Shown in pieces: positions 2,482-4,404 of a stretch of 31,357 nt of DNA (its first letter is position 1; each line of letters begins with the position of its first letter). The stretch is from the IMG/VR virus record IMGVR_UViG_3300025127_000143, positions 1 to 31,357 of that record; one strand, given 5' to 3'. Source of the stretch: a virus. Under the pieces are notes generated by a model. It did not search any database. It saw only the letters and a program-made list of their open reading frames with translations, and was not told the origin of the DNA. The translations under genes were made by a program, and so were the position numbers.

Positions 2482-3100
2482 GGATAATTGGATGCCGAGT
2501 GAAGAAGACATTGAGTGGACGCGTGAGCACTTCGCGCGCATGGCTGAAGACGACACATGGGGTGTCGCTGATGCTGTGCTGCGTAAGACGGGCAGCGGGC
2601 TGATTGTCGTCAGCATGAGTCCCGCGTCTATGCTGCCTCTCAACCGAATCGCTGCCGTGTGCAAGGCGATAGGCATCGACTTTGATTCATCGGGTGCCGA
2701 GATGGTAGAGGACGCTCAGGCTGCAGCGCAGCAATCCGCGCGTGAATGGACGCACCCCGACACGGGCGAACCTCTCGTCAACTTCGACCTTGAGGGGGCC
2801 GAGTGGTTGTGCATGAGTCCTGAAGAGGAAGCGTGGCGCGTCGTCATCCGTCAGGGCGAAGACGAAATCGCGCTCTCCCCGATGGACTACCACCTGCTCG
2901 CGGGCGACGAACTCTTCTTCTCATGGCGTGGAAAGCGCGTGCTTGAGCGTCACGAGATTATCGAGATGGCTGACGAAGGCGGGTTGGTCGAGCGGCTTAC
3001 GCTCGGCAACGTCTTCATCATGCCCACCGTCTACGAGGACGTGCTTGTGCCTCCGCATCTGCGCGGCCTCATCTTCGTCTTCGGAGATGAAGAGGAGTGA
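2474..3100 (+). CDS. Hypothetical acidic protein, 208 aa
   Basis: No family is recognised. ATG at 2474 overlaps the end of the preceding gene by eight bases. An upstream extension of the same frame is rejected because it reads through that gene. The N-terminal third is helical and acidic (SEEDIEWTREHFARMAEDD). A short hydrophobic region follows (GLIVVSMSPASMLPL), and the C-terminal half alternates short beta-like strands and charged turns, ending in GDEEE. There is no signal peptide, cysteine cluster or nucleotide-binding loop. The gene ends with a GTGA overlap onto the ligase-like gene, so the two products are probably made together. A partner role for the ligase-like protein is possible but unsupported by any motif. 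Confidence 0.7.
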   Translation: MIEDNWMPSEEDIEWTREHFARMAEDDTWGVADAVLRKTGSGLIVVSMSPASMLPLNRIAAVCKAIGIDFDSSGAEMVEDAQAAAQQSAREWTHPDTGEPLVNFDLEGAEWLCMSPEEEAWRVVIRQGEDEIALSPMDYHLLAGDELFFSWRGKRVLERHEIIEMADEGGLVERLTLGNVFIMPTVYEDVLVPPHLRGLIFVFGDEEE

Positions 3101-4404
3101 GGTTTGAGGCGTTGGCGAGTGCCGTGGCTGCGGCACAGACGGAGCCGAATCGCGCCCACGAAATCCTCGCTGACCTCTTCGTGACGAATCGCGAATCGGC
3201 GCACGACATCATCACGGTGTGCTGCACGAATGCGCGCACGTCCATCAAGCCACATCACGTCGTGGCGATGTTGGCCGAATCGTTCGGCCTCTTCCCTGAA
3301 GAATATACGGCGCTCATGGAAGAGGAGGAGATGCCGCTTCTCCTTGCGTCCGAATCGCCCGACGAGGTGGCCTCATCAATCACCGTGCGCGAGGCCATCG
3401 AGTTCAAAGAGATGGTCGCGGGGAGCCGAATCAATGCCGAATTGCTGTTCAAATCCTTGTCGCGTCTATCCGCGAAACTGTTCTGGGCTTTCGCCTTCGG
3501 ACGCACCACGCTCAACTATCGGAAGGTGATGGCCGCAGTCGCGTCCGTCACGCCCTACGACACGCAACACCTGCAGAACATGCGCACCATCATGCCCGCA
3601 GGTGACGTAGTGCAACGCGCCCTCGCGCGGACGCTGCCGGAGGCTTTCGCGATTGAACCAACGTATCCATTCCGTGCGCCGACATACGGGCGGTGGAACA
3701 AGTGGTCGGTGCCTTTCACGCGCACGCACTATGAGGTGGTGCGGGGCAAGCACTTCTTCGCGCACCGCAAGGGTGGACGCCTCTTTTGCTATGACCGGCA
3801 CGGGAGCCGAATCGTGCGCGACCCTGCCCTGCAAGGCGAAGACGACTGCGTGGCCGAAATGGACGAATCAGGCAACGTGGTCGAGTGGCTGCACCGCACC
3901 GAGGAGCCGAATCTATGGCGAGAGAATCGGGATAGGCGCGCCACGAATCCGAGGCTCGTGGACGACCGTGCCCACCTGCGCGCTCTCGTCCAAAGCCTTG
4001 ACGAAAACGAAGTCCTGCGTCTCATCGACGCGGACCGACCCTATTTCCACAGCGGTGCTGTTGGAGGTTTCATTGTGCCCAGACGAACATTCGACATCCC
4101 GCTTCTCATCCTCGGTGGCTTTCGTGACGGCGAAGGCATCCGAATCAAGGTGGCCGCGCTTGACGGCTTCGACCCCTTCCCTGTCGGCTACGCCTTCGTG
4201 AAGGCGGACGACATCCCTGACCGACTCACGCGCCTCTACGATGCGCAGACGATGCTTGACGTGGATGAGGGACTCATCGGCATCTTCCATTCCCTCGGCT
4301 ACGACGAAGAGAAGAAGGTCATGCGCGCCCCTTACCTGTCTCGAATCGACACGACCCTTGGTCAGTCGGACGCCATCCAAATCGGCGACCTGATGGAGAA
4401 GTGA
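3097..4404 (+). CDS. ATP-dependent DNA ligase homologue lacking the active-site lysine
   Basis: The 435-aa protein follows archaeal ATP-dependent DNA ligases from end to end, in a shortened form. Residues 1-190 resemble the all-helical DNA-binding domain (MRFEALASAV, LADLF, EFKEMVAGS, LLFKSLSRLSA, DVVQRALA). Residues 210-335 resemble the nucleotidyltransferase domain: HRKGGRLFCYDRHG fits the strand pair after motif I, and CVAEMDESGNVVEW fits motif III. Residues 333-435 resemble the OB domain (LLILGGFRDGEGIR) and the typical C-terminal end (MRAPYLSRID). The motif I region reads EVVRGKHFFAH where family members have E-x-K-x-DG-x-R-x-x-H, so the AMP-accepting lysine, the aspartate and the arginine all appear replaced. 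The motif IV and V lysines are also not evident. It may be a non-catalytic nick- or DNA-binding protein. The start is a GTG overlapping the upstream TGA. The gene carries twelve CGAATC hexamers. The family match is made by eye. Confidence 0.65.
   Translation: MRFEALASAVAAAQTEPNRAHEILADLFVTNRESAHDIITVCCTNARTSIKPHHVVAMLAESFGLFPEEYTALMEEEEMPLLLASESPDEVASSITVREAIEFKEMVAGSRINAELLFKSLSRLSAKLFWAFAFGRTTLNYRKVMAAVASVTPYDTQHLQNMRTIMPAGDVVQRALARTLPEAFAIEPTYPFRAPTYGRWNKWSVPFTRTHYEVVRGKHFFAHRKGGRLFCYDRHGSRIVRDPALQGEDDCVAEMDESGNVVEWLHRTEEPNLWRENRDRRATNPRLVDDRAHLRALVQSLDENEVLRLIDADRPYFHSGAVGGFIVPRRTFDIPLLILGGFRDGEGIRIKVAALDGFDPFPVGYAFVKADDIPDRLTRLYDAQTMLDVDEGLIGIFHSLGYDEEKKVMRAPYLSRIDTTLGQSDAIQIGDLMEK

Follow-up and report, generated by a model that had tools for sequence, protein, structure and literature searches.

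An apparently inactivated LigI-class DNA ligase homologue encoded among the replication genes of marine viruses resembling archaeal viruses

The virus record IMGVR_UViG_3300025127_000143 (31,357 bases; analysed over its whole length and referred to as the window) belongs to a marine group resembling archaeal viruses and encodes a protein that is best described as a dead, i.e., catalytically inactive, DNA ligase, a conclusion that is well supported by family alignments and the predicted structure. Profile comparison and structure prediction establish for this protein a LigI-class ancestry and fold, with a DNA-binding domain (DBD), a nucleotidyltransferase (NTase) domain and an OB-fold domain in this order. 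It is rather probable that an inactivated archaeal LigI was exapted here for an architectural role in the viral replisome that involves no catalysis, leaving ligation to an enzyme of the host. The predicted protein and its domains are located in the window as follows:

3097..4404, plus strand: putative inactivated LigI-class DNA ligase homologue (P0001), open from a GTG start, 435 amino acids
3097..3636, plus strand: N-terminal all-helical domain resembling the ligase DBD, residues 1-180 (hhalign of this part alone, probability 81.9, E 1.1e-5; helices of the model)
3373..3378, plus strand: deletion site of the DBD loop with the PCNA-docking motif (Q..xLF type), about residues 93-94 (alignment columns)
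3637..4101, plus strand: NTase-like domain, residues 181-335, about 45 residues shorter between motifs III and IIIa (joint alignment, model)
4102..4401, plus strand: C-terminal OB-fold-like domain, residues 336-435 (model strands, joint alignment)

Ligase fold and ancestry

The original prediction, made from the sequence alone, had recognized the three-domain order of archaeal ATP-dependent ligases in this protein, and this order is borne out by the predicted structure, by the fold search over the full chain and by the profile of the DBD. In the AlphaFold2 model computed on 25 relatives (pLDDT 89.8), the N-terminal part is made up entirely of helices and the domains after it are rich in beta strands. 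In a Foldseek search against the PDB the archaeal DNA ligases come first (3rr5, E 1.6e-13; 2hiv; 2cfm; 3gde), followed by human LIG1/3/4; 71 matches fall below 1e-3, each of the 50 listed is a DNA ligase or a complex containing one, and no other fold family appears among them. Similarly, DNA ligases are the top named matches in the viral library, the enzyme annotated in the archaeal virus HGTV-1 being one of them. The TM-scores are modest (0.3-0.5) and the whole-chain rmsd is large, as would be expected if the domains were rotated relative to one another.

Pfam, PHROGs, NCBIfam and the PDB give no match to the protein or its profile (phmmer/hmmsearch). A comparison by hhalign with an alignment of ten archaeal ligases resulted in a score of 69.4 (probability 94.9, E 4.3e-8) over residues 1-246, compared to scores of 21.2 or less for the reversed and 40 column-shuffled targets. 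With the noisier profile of 72 members the score drops to 36.3, and the NTase or the OB part alone is not significant against ligases, so that the homology rests on the DBD, the motif I region and the structure. The joint alignment with the archaeal ligases is in register over the full length.

With the archaeal LigI ligases (P. furiosus 2cfm, Thermococcus 3rr5, S. solfataricus 2hiv) the virus protein shares, next to the DBD-NTase-OB order, the [ED]GE element, the motif IV glutamate, the invariant histidine after motif I, Asp356 of the OB domain and the register of the C-terminus. Unlike these enzymes, it has lost the catalytic lysine and motifs I (Asp), IIIa, IV, V and VI, it is shorter by about 45 residues in the stretch from motif III to motif IIIa, it has no PCNA-docking loop, and it comprises only 435 residues compared to about 555-580 in archaeal LigI. 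In the columns of the docking loop two residues or fewer are left in all 72 family members, whereas the glutamine of the motif is present in seven of the ten cellular ligases.

Remnants of the active site

The motif I region reads ...THYEVVRGKHFFAH... (residues 210-223, nucleotides 3724-3765), and its register was set by an ungapped alignment anchored on a shared invariant histidine, H223, which corresponds to H259 of the ligases. The alignment places the degenerate motifs at these positions:

3730..3765, plus strand: degenerate motif I (YEVVRGKHFFAH), K->V214, D->R216, R->H219, His223 retained (alignment)
3844..3867, plus strand: motif III remnant E-x-[ED] (E254, D256), aligned with ligase [ED]GE (E254 in 69/71, D/E256 in 71/71)
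4009..4029, plus strand: motif IV remnant EVLRLID, Glu305 kept (64/72), Lys replaced by I310
4069..4083, plus strand: motif V remnant FIVPR, first Lys replaced by V327, second Lys by R329 (alignment)
4324..4359, plus strand: degenerate motif VI (RAPYLSRIDTTL), R->D418, D->T420, K->L421 (D418 in 70/72)

The claim that motif I is devoid of the K-x-DG-x-R signature was confirmed for the family as a whole: the signature occurs in none of the 71 members covering motif I, and the catalytic lysine is absent in 71/71, being replaced by valine (50), isoleucine (18), threonine (2) or alanine (1). The aspartate of the motif is exchanged for serine, arginine, lysine, threonine and other residues and is never found in the 72-member set. 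The arginine, at the position of H219 in the window, is kept as arginine in 60/71, and the histidine following the motif is kept in 71/71. Moreover, the phenylalanine of motif IIIa is lost in the family. The loss of the motif IV and motif V lysines, which had been proposed as well, holds in part. The motif IV lysine is kept in 2/72 (T22 I18 V15 L6 S6 M3 K2) and the first motif V lysine in 0/72, whereas the second motif V lysine is conservatively replaced (K31/R22; K or R in 53/72). At the C-terminus, the proposed correspondence of RAPYLSRID to RFPRFIRIR of the ligases stands in register, and motif VI is altered across the family from R to D, from D to T/S and from K to L/I.

As the original prediction had anticipated, the fold search, the shuffle-controlled profiles and the 72-member alignment together reveal a ligase fold with the lysine absent from all relatives covering the site. 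No lysine is universally conserved, the maximum per column being 88% in the 25-member and 66% in the 72-member set. K218 was considered as a rescue lysine and rejected, the relatives having Q, N, R, S, P, T or G at this position. H223 was likewise rejected as an alternative nucleophile; it aligns with the histidine of normal ligases and not with the lysine. As judged from the alignment, the lysine side of the predicted pocket is gone and part of its acidic side remains. Since both the nucleophile and the supporting lysines are missing, normal catalysis is excluded in practice.

Conservation, gene neighbourhood and related viruses

A search with the single protein resulted in one near-identical contig only, and tblastn of the dead ligase against phage records gave chance matches only. 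Relatives were reached via the polymerase, yielding 37 loci in which tblastn detects the protein with identities ranging from 100% to 25%; the family grew to 72 members when profile scans and a wider scan with the polymerase were added. In this wider scan, the dead ligase is present in 47/79 loci, the others mostly stopping at, or just upstream of, the gene of the RFC-like clamp loader. The clear exception is L302 (record G223, 82.7 kb), the sole locus with several kb upstream of RFC and no dead ligase. Here, small unrelated ORFs precede RFC instead (L302:1-4860), no recognisable ligase replaces the missing gene upstream of RFC, and the giant protein described below is kept. A scan of bacterial and archaeal genomes revealed no cellular homologue, and none turned up among 195 genomes from the class to which a Poseidoniales genome belongs, in a search run without a positive control.

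For nine informative close pairs omega is 0.04-0.16 (Nei-Gojobori), showing that the gene is under purifying selection and is maintained, not a decaying pseudogene. Furthermore, the family has invariant residues that are absent from ligases (W130, W200, P206, R308, G324, G357, D418, Q428, D431, E434), several of them within the last 18 residues, and these appear to point to a new constrained function:

4348..4401, plus strand: family-specific conserved C-terminus (D418, G422, Q428, D431, E434), candidate interaction surface (97-100% in the family, not conserved in ligases)

The gene is located in a replication block on the plus strand, which also encodes an AAA-like protein, a PD-(D/E)XK exonuclease and an HNH nuclease, and the minus strand of the window carries tail and other virion-type genes:

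33..1799, plus strand: SNF2-type helicase (PF00176, E 1.5e-35)
4933..5811, plus strand: clamp loader, RFC small subunit-like, Walker A/B intact (phrog_5846, E 1.1e-34; sequence)
8585..9382, plus strand: possible sliding clamp, weak match (phrog_947, E 0.049)
9379..11730, plus strand: family B DNA polymerase, PolB (PF00136, E 8e-29)
13103..14215, plus strand: archaeo-eukaryotic primase-like protein (AEP-type), active-site motifs present (phrog_16345 primase, E 1e-5; sequence)
18186-19730, plus strand: group II chaperonin, thermosome (PF00118, E 7e-117)

The order g2327 - dead ligase - g4401 - RFC - g5815 - AAA - clamp-like - PolB - exonuclease - primase is conserved among relatives down to about 25% identity, and in the 20 loci mapped in detail the dead ligase always lies directly before g4401/RFC. 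The PolB exonuclease/palm, RFC and primase motifs appear intact upon reading of the sequence, and against these the ligase stands out as dead. With respect to the polymerase itself, motif C of PolB is YGFTDS in the window, not YGDTDS, with a family consensus of YGHTDS; across ten relatives the first aspartate is not conserved and the second is invariant.

An intact ligase was searched for in 18 records of related viruses, 66-118 kb in length (G001, G007, G008, G010-G012, G223-G234) with ligase profiles that do return matches in control genomes. In these records, PF01068 matches only inside one giant ORF, PF01653 (NAD-dependent ligase) has no match, and PF09414 has none in the six of the 18 searched. 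The apparent absence of an intact ATP- or NAD-dependent ligase from these 18 records, the completeness of which is not stated, is suggestive only. The giant ORF of about 1,800-2,400 amino acids, located between the portal and the prohead protease/major capsid genes, provides most of the 18 records with a second degenerate ligase domain. This C-terminal NTase-OB domain was detected by hhalign (E 3e-6) and by PDB profile matches (E 9e-4), and its AlphaFold2 model (pLDDT 85.9) matches 4eq5 in Foldseek (E 1.5e-12, TMq 0.66). Its motif I lysine is replaced by W/Y/I/M/F and its motif IV lysine by arginine, each in 89/89 copies, and relatives of the domain are encoded on 399 stretches of IMG/VR. The gene lies outside the window and is present in the window's close relative G001; its locations are as follows:

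L083:16017-18998, minus strand: giant protein
L079:2470-8061, plus strand: giant protein; also in L077, L078, L080 and L153-L231

This virus lineage carries two separate degenerate ligase domains. In HVTV-1, which has a related capsid protein, neither the dead ligase nor the giant ligase domain has a detectable homologue. At the position of the giant protein HVTV-1 (L319, 18622-22563) encodes a 1,313-residue 'zeta toxin' protein with no detectable ligase domain, flanked by head assembly and prohead protease genes.

The capsid protein of the related viruses is akin to that of Druskaviridae (33% to HCTV-1). This relationship, the gene content, the size of the largest relatives (90-118 kb) and the modules on opposite strands fit the published description of the Magrovirales (PMC10768690, PMC12999244), suggesting that these viruses likely are magroviruses of archaea. 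The chaperonin was rejected as a host marker; its full-length matches of 33-39% to many cellular archaeal lineages are uninformative. For Poseidoniales, sampled by 79 genomes of the order of the genome holding L116 (titled Candidatus Poseidoniales), an ATP-dependent ligase (PF01068) was found in 0/79 and an NAD-dependent ligase (PF01653) in 78/79 genomes. If Poseidoniales are the hosts, nick sealing would fall to the NAD-dependent ligase.

Possible functions and comparison with known systems

A non-catalytic role is favoured by the lysine being absent in 71/71, by the lack of any other conserved lysine and by no intact ligase being recognisable in the large relatives. An architectural role in the replisome is best supported by the fixed place among the replication genes, the intact-looking motifs of polymerase, clamp loader and primase, the purifying selection and the precedent of poxvirus A20. 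The ancestor would have been an archaeal-type ATP-dependent DNA ligase of the LigI class, with DNA-binding, nucleotidyltransferase and OB domains, which might have lost its ligation chemistry before the virus group diversified. The remaining ligase-shaped clamp or bridge could keep the polymerase, the clamp loader, the clamp or nicked/primed DNA in contact with one another, in an arrangement that would resemble the inactive ligase domain of A20 in the polymerase processivity factor, and ligation itself would be supplied by a host enzyme. We infer the architectural role, its partners and the use of a host ligase from these features.

The middle domain of A20, the polymerase processivity factor of poxviruses, is an inactive DNA ligase consisting of a catalytic subdomain and an OB fold, as described for vaccinia and monkeypox (PMC11142717, citing Mutz et al. 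2023). In the openly licensed literature, poxviruses are the only precedent found for an inactive ligase in a viral replisome. With this precedent, the original statement that a ligase conserved without catalytic function would be a novelty goes too far; the present case is set apart by a stand-alone, three-domain LigI-type dead ligase, apparently in archaeal tailed viruses, and by the second inactive domain in the giant protein. In both systems a virus-encoded inactive ligase fold (NTase and OB) is found in, or encoded beside, the replication polymerase and is conserved in the lineage. Unlike A20, the protein described here is free-standing, it has kept the LigI DNA-binding domain, and the viruses encoding it look archaeal, with a clamp loader and possibly a clamp. 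Moreover, A20 bridges the polymerase and its processivity partner, whereas the virus protein is known from its gene neighbourhood with PolB, RFC and a possible clamp. Going by its description, A20 has an N-terminal UDG-binding and a C-terminal polymerase-binding domain, whereas the model of the virus protein comprises only the three ligase-like domains. An origin independent of A20 is likely.

Several features constrain how such an architectural protein might work. Canonical PIP-box tethering to the clamp was rejected due to the deletion of the PCNA-docking loop, and by the alignment any clamp binding must use another surface. The mean net charge in the family is -5.0 for the DBD and -7.3 for the OB domain compared to +1.3 and +0.5 in ligases, and other proteins of the window are acidic too. 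This acidity would speak against broad DNA clamping and, together with the deleted loop, would argue against simple clamp-tethered DNA binding. The conserved pocket residues H223, E254, D/E256, E305 and the arginine at the position of H219 (60/71) would be unneeded in a pure scaffold and in this respect argue against it; this set of His, Glu and Arg residues would still allow nick sensing or a non-covalent role involving a nucleotide or metal. It also counts against the architectural role that the relative G223 lives without the dead ligase.

The same residues lead to a possible, though less probable, explanation, in which the protein is a sensor that binds nicks, gaps or 5'-phosphates and protects them or passes them to the host ligase with no catalysis of its own; the acidic pocket that remains might accommodate a nucleotide or a metal. 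The DBD fold is kept, with an Arg/Lys at R136 aligning with the arginine of the ligase MRIG element, the acidic pocket residues and mostly the motif I arginine are kept as well, and the NAD-dependent ligase of the likely hosts is non-homologous and would need recruiting. The negative net charge of DBD and OB domain does not fit such a sensor. The motif I aspartate, the motif IV lysine and motif VI contact nucleotide and DNA in ligases, and it is these that are lost here.

That the protein blocks host nick sealing or repair, e.g., as a competitor of the host ligase at the clamp or on DNA, is improbable. A dead enzyme might in principle act as a dominant competitor, but the PCNA-docking loop needed for competition at the clamp is deleted, the gene sits in a replication operon and not among variable accessory genes, and Poseidoniales, if they are the hosts, have no ATP-dependent ligase to mimic (0/79). 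For such hosts the blocking of LigI, one of the roles initially suggested, is disfavoured. A cryptic enzyme, which would not self-adenylylate and would catalyse only step 3 on pre-adenylylated nicks or employ another nucleophile, is slightly more improbable still. In true ligases step 3 can survive a Lys-to-Ala mutation, and the motif III and IV glutamates and a basic motif V residue are kept; against this, the motif I Asp, IIIa Phe, IV Lys, first V Lys and motif VI are lost family-wide, and near the site there is neither a conserved lysine nor an alternative nucleophile, H223 matching the histidine of normal ligases. Finally, a coincidental fold match without any ligase kinship, as might be read from the missing sequence-level matches in Pfam, PHROGs, NCBIfam and the PDB, the weak hhalign result for the catalytic part alone and the lower score of the 72-member (36.3) than of the 25-member profile, is hardly credible given that DNA ligases are the top Foldseek matches over the whole chain in two libraries, that the hhalign score of 69.4 compares to 21.2 for the best of 40 shuffles and that the register is full-length, including [ED]GE, the motif IV Glu and the C-terminus.

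The favoured reading of an architectural replisome protein bears on published genome annotations. A DNA ligase was reported in nearly all magrovirus genomes (PMC10160649), and in one case it was annotated beside the prohead protease gene (PMC7318539), which is also the location of the giant protein here. The magroviruses with this 'ATP-dependent DNA ligase' (ICTV Aoguangviridae/Apasviridae: PMC10768690, PMC12999244; PMC10160649; PMC7318539) are similar to the viruses analysed here in gene content, genome size and opposite-strand modules, and the giant protein possibly is what these papers call ATP-dependent DNA ligase. In contrast to this annotation, none of the relatives analysed here yielded a ligase that retains the catalytic lysine. 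The case is evenly balanced for the broader reading that a large marine lineage of tailed viruses, probably the magroviruses of archaea, has inactivated and exapted ligase folds on two occasions, one of them yielding a subunit of the replisome and the other the C-terminal domain of a giant protein of head assembly. By this reading the viruses encode no working ligase, contrary to what has been annotated in related genomes. The 'ATP-dependent DNA ligase' assigned to magroviruses needs re-checking, as does the inference that these viruses can do with little of the replication machinery of their host; the sealing of nicks would be left to a host enzyme, probably an NAD-dependent one. A second, free-standing case, in which the three-domain LigI fold is intact and which is conserved across many marine viruses, would show repeated recruitment of ligase folds as replisome scaffolds. 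Among tailed archaeal viruses, Halogranum tailed virus 1 (HGTV-1) encodes a protein annotated as an ordinary DNA ligase (R4T9C5), which lies outside the recovered dead-ligase family and is its third-best viral structural match (E 4.4e-11).
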